A stretch of 38,308 bases of DNA, taken from positions 1-38,308 of the forward strand of contig NZ_AZEA01000024.1 in assembly GCF_001435575.1 (NCBI RefSeq). The letters run 5' to 3'. The notes below the pieces were generated by a model that worked only from the letters and a program-made list of their open reading frames with translations, was not told the origin of the DNA and did no database searches. Positions 10,091 to 38,308 of this stretch are shown here, piece by piece. This DNA comes from Lentilactobacillus sunkii DSM 19904 (GTDB lineage Bacteria > Bacillota > Bacilli > Lactobacillales > Lactobacillaceae). The first letter of the stretch is position 1. Each line of letters opens with the position of its first letter. The translations under genes were made by a program, and so were the position numbers.

Positions 10091-10100
10091 GTGAAGCAGA

Positions 10101-10217
10101 GTGCGACGAGACCCGGGTGATCGTGGTGCATAAGTGGGGACCGACAATTGATGAACGTTCTTTGTTTATTGATTGTCGGTCCCCACTTATGTGTAGCGAT
10201 CAGGGTTGTCGAAGCAC
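10101..10217 (+). repeat. Hairpin element, copy 1
   Basis: It starts with GTGCGACGAGACCCG, the same 15 nt as at 14336. Exactly 28 nt later comes a 63-nt hairpin (10129-10191). Its 28-bp stem has Watson-Crick pairs except three G-U pairs, and its 7-nt loop is GTTCTTT. Outside it, GATCG pairs with CGATC, CCC with GGG, GAC with GTC, and GTGC (10101-10104) with GCAC (10214-10217), with small internal loops. The wobbles are G-U only on the plus strand. The flanking genes are both on the minus strand. The element could act as a 3'-end structure, an RNase III target or an independent small RNA. The family is not one I can name. Confidence 0.7.
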
Positions 10218-10574
10218 GTTTGATCCAAATAACAGAGGAAACACAAAATTACCTCATCAACAAATTGAGACCACAAAGTAAAAGAAGGATTATCACAAAT
10301 ACAAAAGTGGTCTGATAGGCTAACAATAAGCCTAAGGAATTGTGCAGTTACCCTTCAGATCCGAAAAAATAAAATTAGCAAAATAGAAGGGCAACTCTTG
10401 TGCTGTGCAGCCCCAACGATCAAATTTTCATCCCAACAAAAAAAGCGCCCCTCCCAGAGTTTTCCGCCTCCAGAAGTGGCACTTCAATTTCATTTTTATC
10501 AATTATCATCGACTTCATCAATAGTTCAAAAACAATTATTGCATCGTAAAACTTTGTCTCTATTTCTGAGTTAA
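10218..10574. other. Gene-free stretch with inverted repeats
   Basis: No credible ORF lies here. It holds AGACCAC/GTGGTCT, a small AGGCT-N7-AGCCT hairpin, and GTTACCCTTC/GAAGGGCAAC (one mismatch). It also has a run of A at about 10438-10446 next to a GC-rich segment, which on the minus strand reads as GC-rich DNA followed by seven T. That last part may end the hydratase transcript, but I cannot fold a clean stem there. Confidence 0.4.
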
Positions 10575-11611: not shown

Positions 11612-11905
11612 AACAAAAAGACGTCCAGTCAGCTACCCATAAATGGATAGTTAAAAGGACGTCTAATGCGCGGTACCACCTTAATTTGTAATTCTATTAC
11701 TAGAATTACCTCACACGTACAGCTTTCGCGATACGCTGACACAATAATGGGTGCACCCAATGCAATCTACTAAATCTTTGATCACATAGCTCGGAGATGA
11801 TAATCATCTAATGTTGCAAATTGCTTCACACCAACCAGCAACTCTCTTATTGCAAACAGAAGATGACGTTTCTCTTCATCGCTTTTTAATTTGAATTTAA
11901 TGATT
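11612..11905 (-). promoter_or_regulatory. T-box riboswitch leader, probably isoleucine-specific
   Basis: On the minus strand the leader contains a stem I with basal GATGA/TCATC, a distal AGAGAGTTGCT-GGTTGGTG segment, and the CCGAGC element after stem I. The T-box itself, AGGTGGTACCGCG, maps at 11669-11681. A terminator follows, in which GACGTCC and GGACGTC pair before five T (11615-11664). The 3' side of the specifier loop reads ATTA between AGATG and TCATC, so the best specifier is ATT (Ile) followed by the usual A. TTA (Leu) or GAT (Asp) cannot be excluded, because the segment GATGATAATCATC is self-complementary. Uncharged tRNA would allow read-through into the two downstream ORFs. Confidence 0.88.
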
Positions 11906-12989: not shown

Positions 12990-14333
12990 ATGGAAACCAA
13001 GCAAATTTTAGATACCATTCAGATGATTTCTGAAGAAAAGTTGGATATTCGAACCATTACCATGGGGATCTCGCTTTTTGACTGTATCGACAGTGATGGC
13101 GAAAAAGCCCGTCAAAAAATTTATGAAAAGCTGACGACCAGTGCCAAGGATTTGGTTAAGGTGGCCGATCAAATTGAATCGGAGTACGGCATTCCAATTG
13201 TTAATAAGCGGATATCGGTTACTCCAATTTCAATGATTGCCGCAGCGTGTCATGATGATAATTACGTTGCCTACGCCCAAACGATGGAGAAAGCTGCTGA
13301 AACTCTTGGCGTTGATCTCATCGGCGGCTTTTCTGCTCTGGTCCAAAAGGGATATCAATCCGGCGATCGCAAATTGATTGCGTCAATGCCTGAAGCACTG
13401 AGTGAAACCAAGCGGGTATGTGGTTCAGTCAACGTTGGTTCGACCCGTGCCGGAATTAATATGGATGCTGTCAGACAGATGGGCCGCGTTGTCAAAGATT
13501 TGTCAGAAATTGATCCCGTCAGTTGTATGAGTTTGGTTGTGTTTGCCAACGCCGTTGAAGATAACCCCTTTATGGCAGGGGCGTTTCATGGAGTTGGTGA
13601 AGCTGATAAGGTTATCAATGTCGGTATTAGTGGCCCAGGAGTTGTTAAACGGGCCCTTGAGCAGGTTAAGGGCGAATCAATTGATACAGTTTCCGAAACA
13701 ATCAAAAAGACGGCGTTCAAGGTAACCAGAATGGGCCAATTCGTTGGTAATGTCGCTGCCAAAGCATTAAATGTGCCGTTTGGAATTGTCGATCTTTCAT
13801 TGGCACCAACCCCAAGTCAGGGGGATTCAGTTGCTGAAATTCTTGAAGAAATCGGCTTGGAAAGCGTGGGCGCTCCTGGAACGACAGCTGCTCTTGCACT
13901 CTTAAATGACGCAGTTAAAAAAGGCGGGGTCATGGCCTGTGAACATGTTGGTGGCTTATCCGGTGCCTTCATTCCGGTTTCAGAAGACAGTGGGATGATT
14001 AAAGCGGTTGAGCATGGTAATTTGAATTTGGAAAAATTAGAGGCAATGACCGCCGTTTGTTCGGTCGGCTTGGATATGGTTGCGGTCCCTGGTGATACCA
14101 CCGCGGAAACCATCAGCGGCATGATTGCTGATGAAGCTGCGATTGGTGTGATTAACAATAAGACCACAGCAGTCAGAGTGATTCCTGCCAAGGGCAAAAA
14201 GGTCGGTGAACAAATTGATTTTGGCGGAATATTCGGATATGCACCGGTGATGCCGGTCAATACAAACAGCCCAGCTAAGTTCGTGACAAGGGGAGGAAGA
14301 ATCCCGGCACCGATCCATTCGTTCAAAAATTAA
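12990..14333 (+). CDS. UPF0210/DUF711 family protein
   Basis: A 447-residue cytoplasmic protein of the DUF711 (UPF0210) family, structurally related to glycyl-radical enzyme folds but without an established reaction. Conserved stretches are [15 protein letters not shown] at the start, [78 protein letters not shown] and the C-terminal [33 protein letters not shown]. The length is typical of the family. The start has AGGAGG with 8-bp spacing. The only partner gene is the upstream ACT protein. Hairpin element copy 2 begins 3 nt after its stop codon, so it would form the 3' end of this transcript. Confidence 0.9.
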
Positions 14334-14335
14334 GT

Positions 14336-14474
14336 GTGCGACGAGACCCGTTTAGGACCCGGAGTACAAGGAAAAGCAGGCAATGATGAACGCACTTAGT
14401 TCATCGTTGCCTGCTTTTTCTTGTACAGTACCAAGTAGGCTAGGCGTTTCACGCCGTCGGGGCCCTGAGTCTCG
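14336..14474 (+). repeat. Hairpin element, copy 2
   Basis: It starts with the same 15 nt as copy 1 (GTGCGACGAGACCCG). At exactly +28 a 63-nt hairpin follows (14364-14426) with a 28-bp stem, two G-U pairs and the 7-nt loop GCACTTA. The stem sequence differs from copy 1 except at the top (TGATGAAC next to the loop). Outside, CGAGAC (14342-14347) pairs with GTCTCG (14469-14474) and TTAGG with CCTGA, which encloses the first unit of the small-hairpin array. It follows the DUF711 stop directly. Confidence 0.7.
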
Positions 14475-14510
14475 CCAAGTAGGCTAGGCAGGCTTTGAGC
14501 CTGCCGTCGG
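14431..14510 (+). repeat. Tandem hairpin array, two units
   Basis: Each unit is CCAAGTAGGCTAGGC, then a variable hairpin, then GCCGTCGG. Unit 1 (14431-14460) has GGCG-TTTCA-CGCC. Unit 2 (14475-14510) has GGCAGGC-TTTGA-GCCTGCC. The flanks are identical, while the stems differ in length and stay fully paired, which argues for selection on RNA structure. A small GAGC/GCTC hairpin follows. There is no ORF here. Confidence 0.65.
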
Positions 14511-14523
14511 AGCATAGCTCAAA

Positions 14524-14738: not shown

Positions 14739-15167
14739 TCACAAATCTTTTTCAACCACGACACAAGGCACACCATCTTCATAAAACACATCTGATGTGA
14801 TTTTGTATCCTAAACGTTTATAGAAGTTGATGGCATCCATTTCACTATGAATCAGTGAATGGGTGAAACCCATTTTCTTTGCTTTTTCTTCCAAAGCACT
14901 AACAACTTTGCGGCCATATCCGTGGCCCCGGCTTTCTTTCAAAGTTGCAACTCTGCCAATTTTTAATGTGTGCTTGTCATAAGTTTCGAAACGGCACGTT
15001 GCAGCAGGTAATTTCCCGTCAAACAGCACCGCATAAACCATTCTGTCAGAATCTTTGTCGTCGAATTCATCAGTAAATGCAATTCCACGTTCCAAGACAA
15101 AAACAGACATTCGAATGTAAGCCGCAGCGGCCCGGGCAGGCTTTGAGCTTTCCACAATTAGTTTCAT
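14739..15167 (-). CDS. GNAT family N-acetyltransferase
   Basis: A 142-residue acetyl-CoA-dependent acetyltransferase. The acetyl-CoA loop is KIGRVATLKESRGHGYGRKVVSALEEKAK (R-G-H-G-Y-G), preceded by a central beta-strand VYAVLFDGKLPAATCRFE and followed by HSEMDAINFYKRLGYK, the usual last motif. The closest remembered group is the ElaA/YjcF type of small GNATs. The ATG at 15167 has AAAGGTGAAG before it and suits better than the GTG at 15176. The substrate is unknown. Upstream and downstream genes are separate units. Confidence 0.85.
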   Translation of the reverse strand: MKLIVESSKPARAAAAYIRMSVFVLERGIAFTDEFDDKDSDRMVYAVLFDGKLPAATCRFETYDKHTLKIGRVATLKESRGHGYGRKVVSALEEKAKKMGFTHSLIHSEMDAINFYKRLGYKITSDVFYEDGVPCVVVEKDL

Positions 15168-38173: not shown

Positions 38174-38177
38174 AAGA

Positions 38178-38284
38178 GTGTGAGTTGGGGCGCTTAATGA
38201 CTGGATGCTAAGTCTCCTCAATTCAAAATCGAGTTTGATTTTGAATTGAGGTGCTTAGCAGGAAGTCATTGCCCCAAGGAACAC
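38178..38284 (+). repeat. Long imperfect hairpin downstream of the second ADH gene
   Basis: Five helices in a row: GTGT/ACAC, TGGGGC/GCCCCA, AATGACT/AGTCATT, TGCTAAG/CTTAGCA and a 15-bp CCTCAATTCAAAATC/GATTTTGAATTGAGG, with a 6-nt loop. They are separated by small internal loops of 2-4 nt. It has the same GTGYGA opening and outer GTGY/RCAC pairing as copy 1, but not the conserved ATGAAC loop. There is no T run, so it is not a standard terminator. Confidence 0.6.
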
Positions 38285-38308
38285 GTTTTCTACGTATAGT
38301 CAATATAT

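Follow-up and report, generated by a model that had tools for sequence, protein, structure and literature searches.

Hairpin rods next to stop codons in lactic acid bacteria suggest a hitherto undescribed type of RNA element at mRNA ends

Known hairpin repeats and the element behind a DUF711 gene

Dispersed hairpin-forming repeats on the 3' side of genes are, as a general kind, already known. The intergenic BOX, RUP, ERIC and Bcr1 repeats also fold into stem-loops, but unlike the elements described here, which we call rods, they are defined by a sequence consensus, and they are not known to be homologous to the rods. Their sizes are given as 84 (BOX), 63 (RUP) and 167 (Bcr1) in the accessible parts of PMC2267715 and PMC3049150. 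REPs are 20-40 bp long with a GTAG or CGTC end, the GTAG type being associated with RAYT transposases (PMC3733652, accessible part), and those with fewer than 16 nt between them and a stop codon are reported, for E. coli, to cause ribosome stalling and cleavage of the mRNA (PMC12306157, accessible part, citing Liang 2015). Rods and REPs are alike as dispersed extragenic hairpin repeats with many copies per genome, some of them near a stop; the rods differ in being about 120 nt long, in conserving geometry rather than sequence and in their sense orientation. Membership in the REP/RAYT group was considered and rejected, the unit measuring about 115-125 nt with AGA/AGT...TTT borders and the transposase family PF01797 being absent from the genome studied here (G000).

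Lacto-rpoB, Lacto-usp and the L17 downstream element are likewise structured RNA motifs of Lactobacillales (Weinberg 2010, PMC2864571, accessible part), and the Rfam 15 scans of the rods gave no match to these families, so far as that release includes them; Lacto-int has no Rfam number in the table seen in that source and hence falls outside the comparison. An Rfam 15 scan of our stretch of DNA and of 11 loci with other copies gave nothing above the gathering threshold on the hairpins, which produced only sub-threshold matches of miRNA type. The GTGCG at the start of the rod recalls a group II intron, an assignment that was dropped, with no such Rfam match and no reverse transcriptase in the same genome. 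A literature search by title and abstract start, mainly of open-access work and weak as evidence of absence, found no description of the rod among the papers listed. Its combination of conserved geometry with nearly free sequence, a sense position at stop codons and spread across genera was unmatched in the literature found.

The stretch analysed (the window) comprises 38,308 nt of Lentilactobacillus sunkii DSM 19904 and contains three copies of the element. Copy 2, directly behind a DUF711 gene, is interrupted by two inserts. The features are as follows, with scores from the models R1 and R2 and column positions from alignment A2, all described below.

12990..14333, plus strand: DUF711 protein gene, its stop abutting copy 2 (ORF; PF05167, E=4e-192)
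14333..14520, plus strand: element copy 2, full extent, with two nested hairpin inserts (from comparison with uninterrupted copies and the fold)
14336..14363, plus strand: conserved 5' arm of copy 2 (from the column positions of A2), consisting of P1 GTGC (14336-14339), then GA, P2 CGAGACCC (14342-14349), the one-sided bulge GTTT (14350-14353), P3 AGGACCC (14354-14360) and the internal loop GGA (14361-14363)
14364..14426, plus strand: P4 of copy 2, 28 bp, the hairpin first recognised; loop GCACTTA at 14392-14398, two G-U pairs
14427..14430, plus strand: AGTA, 3' side of the P3/P4 internal loop, common in the long type
14431..14459, plus strand: nested mini-hairpin insert 1 (CCAAGTAGGCTAGGC...GCCGTCG), the same module as in other copies
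14460..14474, plus strand: 3' strands of P3 and P2
14475..14509, plus strand: nested mini-hairpin insert 2, 35 nt, between the 3' strands of P2 and P1
14510..14520, plus strand: 3' strand of P1 and element end (GAGCATAGCTC)
10098..10221, plus strand: element copy 1, uninterrupted (R1 99 bits, R2 80 bits)
38175..38288, plus strand: element copy 3, diverged type (R2 51 bits, E 1.2e-12; sequence)

An earlier note, made from the sequence alone, had described copy 2 as a 15-nt start shared with copy 1 and followed at +28 by a hairpin with a 28-bp stem and a 7-nt loop. This was borne out: the 15-mer GTGCGACGAGACCCG occurs exactly twice within the window, at 10101 and 14336, the arms of the hairpin (14364-14391 and 14399-14426) are 28 nt long, 93% complementary and 7 nt apart, and the two wobbles, read on the plus strand, are both G-U, as had been said. 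The beginning, placed 3 nt past the DUF711 stop, needs correction. Just GT (14334-14335) separates the stop from the 15-mer, and the conserved start AGT of the element shares the last A of the TAA stop. From this AGT the element extends to GAGCATAGCTC, its 3' arm running to ~14520 and pairing with the 15-nt start; since two small hairpins split this arm, the inner stem alone had been seen. The stems of copies 1 and 2 had been said to share no clear similarity, which holds except for an apical CAA(T)TGATGAAC and a basal AAG common to both.

The whole of copy 2 folds with -99.6 kcal/mol, compared with a mean of -60.9 for shuffled sequences (z -9.6; 0 of 200 shuffles as good), so that its hairpin is more than a product of chance, the minimum-energy fold pairing the base slightly otherwise than the assignment derived from A2. 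R1 scores this copy at 66 bits, and because of the two inserts its 3' arm is misaligned in the match. The folding energies on the plus and minus strands are -76.9 versus -59.4 kcal/mol for copy 1 and -60.1 versus -54.3 kcal/mol for copy 3. Copy 3 lies directly behind the stop of a zinc-dependent dehydrogenase gene; the ORF nearest to copy 1 ends 32 nt before its AGA and has no Pfam match. The Rfam scan also placed 11 clustered tRNA genes (44-1068) and a T-box leader (11652-11888, minus strand) in the window, all ordinary.

Geometry of the rod and selection on its plus strand

Across the copies with the exact 15-nt start, eight in the window's genome and found in 7 of the 24 genus genomes including the window's own, the start pairs with a partner some 100 nt downstream (...GGGTCGTCGGAGCAC), and in most copies compared the whole 115-125 nt form one rod. 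At its base lies P1, usually 4-5 bp long, followed by a 2x2 loop (GA/GA), an 8-bp P2 in which one base is often bulged, a bulge of 3-4 nt confined to the 5' side, and P3, usually 6-7 bp. Beyond an internal loop that mostly measures 2-3 by 3-4 nt come P4 (mostly 26-31 bp) and, at the tip, the apical loop. The pairing of its ends as P1 amounts to terminal inverted repeats such as those of MITEs, although P1 is short for that purpose. In a scripted measurement of 59 own-genome copies, the P4 span was 27 in 22 copies, 29 in 13, 28 in 10, 30 in six and 26 and 31 in one each, while the remaining six scored 36-40 because P4 runs into P3. The apical loop had 7 nt in 27 copies, 5 nt in 21 and 3, 4, 6 or 8 nt in the other 11. 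The near-fixed geometry proposed earlier thus holds as a tight pattern of stem and loop across copies, but not under the rules attached to it: the expected constant 28-bp stem occurs in just 10 of the 59, and the loop formula GNNCTTW has no strict fit, the long type, judged by eye, being nearer to G-NNN-YTT and another type having CCC-NGGNNTT-GGG. Further types with a similar build and other stem sequences can be seen by eye in the oriented hairpin list.

Starting from an alignment of 30 copies (A1), which left out nine exact-start copies without the required 3' end, copy 2 among them, 26 were carried into two alignments, A2 (17 sequences) and A3 (9 sequences), from which the models R1 and R2, respectively, were made. 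The two types were modelled apart because one joint alignment misregistered the stem. In A2, 98.9% of cells are paired with double changes in 23 of 48 pairs, and in A3, 97.5% with double changes in 22 of 45. A further alignment, A4 (11 sequences from several genera), showed double changes in 39 of 47 pairs; in the outer helix 9 of 12 pairs are of this kind. Paired cells make up 94% of A4, a fraction lowered by the partly misregistered rows of copy 1 of the window and of locus L218. None of 500 shuffles reached the double-change values of any of the three alignments, and controls in which the partner was slid gave 7-11 (A2), 2-8 (A3) and 12-23 (A4) double-change pairs with 36-47% of cells paired. 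One gene is common to four genomes, its orthology established by BLAST for two and from the sequence upstream for the others; between its P4 stems there are at most four double changes, and no pair is broken.

The mismatches are strongly one-sided. The variable stem of A2 and A3 contains 100 G-U, one A-C and eight other mismatches, a count oriented by sequence motif and hence free of a bias toward the better-folding strand. Across 1534 positions of the 59 own copies there are 180 G-U, five A-C and 36 other mismatches (binomial p 7e-47). With G-U so far above A-C, it is the plus strand that folds. The earlier proposal of structural constraint rather than recent duplication is therefore supported, pairing having survived double changes in all three alignments with wobbles that are nearly all G-U. 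We are highly confident that a structured element family exists and is under plus-strand selection. G-T pairs are tolerated in single-stranded DNA as well, so the G-U excess alone cannot separate RNA from single-stranded DNA.

The mini-hairpin module of the two inserts (CCAAGTAGGCTAGGC...GGCCGTCG) was searched for in the fetched loci with one mismatch allowed and found at 33 distinct places, a few of which look like chance; by eye, it often sits at internal-loop positions of other rods. It has GTAG ahead of its hairpin, as in REPs.

Copy number, stop codons and turnover

When the lists from R1 and R2 (the best 150 candidates of each) were merged, at least 85 distinct full-length places remained in the window's genome, counted without reverse-strand shadows or partial matches, though a few may be tandem fragments. 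Of these, 82 pass 40 bits on the first score taken and the other three, copy 2 included, pass with R1. The true number may be higher, as both genome searches missed copy 3. A search-free scan for hairpins with stems of at least 27 bp, not all of which are rods, found 47 in 400 kb of genome G001, 25 in 394 kb of the window's genome and none in 400 kb of G002. With a limit of E 0.01, R1 matches (counted on both strands) occur in 16 of the 24 genus genomes; at E 1e-6 they occur in 42 of 251 family genomes and 12 of 40 genera. In the order sample, 11 of 395 genomes have a match. Two of the latter belong to another family, and three loci from these two fold alike, one of them less regularly. Five L. 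brevis plasmid records contain a 71% identical match, located, according to the annotation of one record, directly behind an MgtC/SapB family gene. In the phage collection the only match was a short one of 26 bases in an Aeromonas phage (E 0.4), taken as chance. At one locus (L231 in G108, contig 6), three identical rods follow one another head to tail at intervals of about 125 bp.

Position was assessed for 59 own copies with flanks (58 model matches and copy 2), seven of which had too little upstream sequence. Of the 52 evaluable copies, 35 begin at -8..+12 nt from a sense stop of an ORF of at least 80 codons, compared with 52 of 3000 random positions; accepting any ORF of at least 80 codons raises the number to 36. 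The corresponding share of E. coli REPs, those within 15 nt of a stop, is 446 of 4072 (PMC12306157, accessible part). Seven of the 52 follow directly behind another copy, one of these being also near a stop, and 11, copy 1 of the window among them, have neither a near stop nor a tandem copy upstream. The mirrored arrangement, with an opposite-strand stop, was found for none of the 56 copies with enough downstream sequence (one within 60 nt), and among the 49 that could be judged on both sides 33 are sense and none mirrored. The commonest offsets are -2 (10 copies) and -1 (seven), so that in these 17 copies the end of the stop codon (A or AG) comes from the element itself. In G002, which has no R1 match, long hairpins that are probably ordinary terminators also mostly begin within ~16 nt past a stop. 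Position alone would therefore fit a terminator; the rod geometry and the missing U-tract do not.

The DUF711 gene itself is present in 18 of 24 genus genomes. In the 16 species examined, a rod of the same build lies at or within some 16 nt of its stop in eight and is absent from eight, one of which (G006) has a different long hairpin instead; the rod is thus dispensable at this gene. Where present, the stems, judged by eye from the folds, differ strongly among species and include outer stems without resemblance. At the DUF711 rod of G004 (L233, 1480-1819) there are 3.7 repeats of a 93-bp unit that comprises loop, 3' arm and tail. For 15 own sites the fetched stretches of G001 include an ortholog; seven of these orthologs have a hairpin of at least 22 bp past the stop, compared with 41 of 329 genes in G001 overall (p 0.002), a comparison that takes any long hairpin and in which one positive (L081) rests on a short ORF in a tandem region.

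Eight sites were compared with empty counterparts. Clear homology directly behind the insert was seen at L112 and L086, homology only further downstream at L114, L119, L129 and L110, and unconvincing similarity at L105 and L107. At L086 and L112, the downstream sequence resumes 19-25 nt past the stop in G001 versus 182-216 nt in the window's genome, the difference thus corresponding to a rod plus a tail of about 67-89 nt, and no duplication is recognisable in these two clean comparisons. The tail is A-rich and G-poor (A 38-44% and G about 15% at 20-60 nt behind the rod). Of 177 copy-pair alignments (identity of 80% or more across 90 nt or more), 101 have their start within 2 nt of AGA and 87 their end 0-2 nt past TTT, others stopping inside or entering the tail. 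Among the best 45 of 429 copy pairs the top identity is 93.5%, barring three 100% pairs of overlapping loci. A parent transposon was sought in the form of Y1 and reverse transcriptase families: Y1 transposases (PF01797) occur in 7 and reverse transcriptases (PF00078) in 8 of the 24 genus genomes, and both are absent from the copy-rich genomes G000, G001, G008, G013 and G014. The very different stems at orthologous genes agree in a sense with the earlier idea of an insertion mechanism that replaces stems. They suggest turnover by copying, insertion and loss.

Some rods adjoin contig ends. The window's contig ends in TCTACGTATAGTCAATATAT directly past the TTT of copy 3 (38175-38308); the same string stands behind the rods that end contigs C6 and C40 and, in shorter form, C48, and C47 contains it a fourth time in exact form. 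At the ends of C5, C14, C21, C27 and C49, rods are preceded by another string, which ends in CATAACA. The probable source is an insertion sequence with multiple copies whose insertion points coincide exactly with the borders of rods.

Candidate roles of the rod and their meaning

Selection of an RNA-like kind, sense orientation and a place 3' of genes are all found for the rods, as would be expected of a cis-acting 3'-UTR RNA, with some room left for single-stranded DNA. On balance, we favour a dispersed structured Lactobacillales RNA that forms the start of the 3' UTR of the upstream gene and acts in cis on the 3' end of the mRNA. The rod, about 115-125 nt, would be made as the beginning of this untranslated region, and the transcribed RNA would fold into a helix of roughly 50 bp that begins in or just past the footprint of the stop-bound ribosome. 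Such a rod would most likely act on the 3' end of its own message, probably, by analogy, like the stop-proximal REPs of E. coli. It may protect the coding part against 3'-5' decay, hinder the terminating ribosome or do both, and its long helix is also a candidate site for a double-strand RNase; exonuclease protection and cleavage would each make use of a long stable rod, which gives no choice between them.

It is less probable, and we consider it doubtful, that the rod is mainly a selfish non-autonomous mobile element whose mobilising enzyme recognises folded RNA or single-stranded DNA, the stop codon being a tolerated or aimed insertion site and any effect on host genes incidental. The at least 85 places in one genome, the sharp borders of copy pairs near AGA and TTT, presence or absence at orthologous stops, head-to-tail copies and carriage on L. 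brevis plasmids are what such an element would produce, and the tolerance of G-T in single-stranded DNA deprives the G-U excess of its decisive weight for RNA. The five copy-rich genomes, however, have no resident Y1 or reverse transcriptase mobiliser, the orientation of the rod follows the upstream gene, no target-site duplication was identified, and no recent burst is visible at a top identity of 93.5% in the best 45 of 429 pairs, although G108 has identical tandems. That the rod is instead an unusual transcription terminator closing the upstream transcription unit appears very unlikely. It does occupy the place where terminators lie, it is followed by an A-rich, G-poor tail, and the first terminator-like site on the plus strand past the DUF711 rod, at 14857, is weak, within a region with two such sites on both strands versus 1.7 expected by chance. 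As an intrinsic terminator it was rejected, the hairpin having no immediate U-tract: most rods end in GCACGTTT and mixed bases or in GCATAGCTC. The RNA-binding domain of Rho (PF07497) was found in none of the 24 genus genomes, whereas 9 of the 14 genomes used as controls, Lactococcus lactis among them, were positive; a Rho site in the A-rich tail was therefore rejected. A co-directional gene comes next in 35 of 56 copies with enough sequence downstream, though this does not exclude termination, and some copies have a separate terminator-like hairpin further downstream, which would place those rods inside the transcript; this last result is mixed, as the hairpins may include remnants of other rods.

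Least probable of all is a palindrome acting at the DNA level, as a cruciform or folded DNA to which a protein binds or which template switching keeps perfect. The long near-perfect inverted repeats suit this reading, which we regard as extremely unlikely, since a symmetrical cruciform explains neither the 180 G-U versus five A-C nor the sense orientation, and template switching would yield perfect Watson-Crick arms rather than 180 wobbles. A more speculative and distinctly unlikely thought is that the rod is a bacterial counterpart of SINEs: a geneless structured RNA that has stop codons as its target when it spreads, perhaps in RNA form and by way of the terminating ribosome or of a cut made at the stop codon, and that gives very many genes new 3' ends, its shape kept while its stems drift.

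If the cis-acting 3'-UTR reading is right, many 3' ends in lactobacilli would carry one unlisted RNA element whose geometry is selected and whose sequence is nearly free. The rods would then offer a natural experiment on how a stop-proximal hairpin affects the termination of translation and the decay of mRNA in bacteria that lack Rho, and they would pose the question of how a geneless element reaches stop codons across genera.
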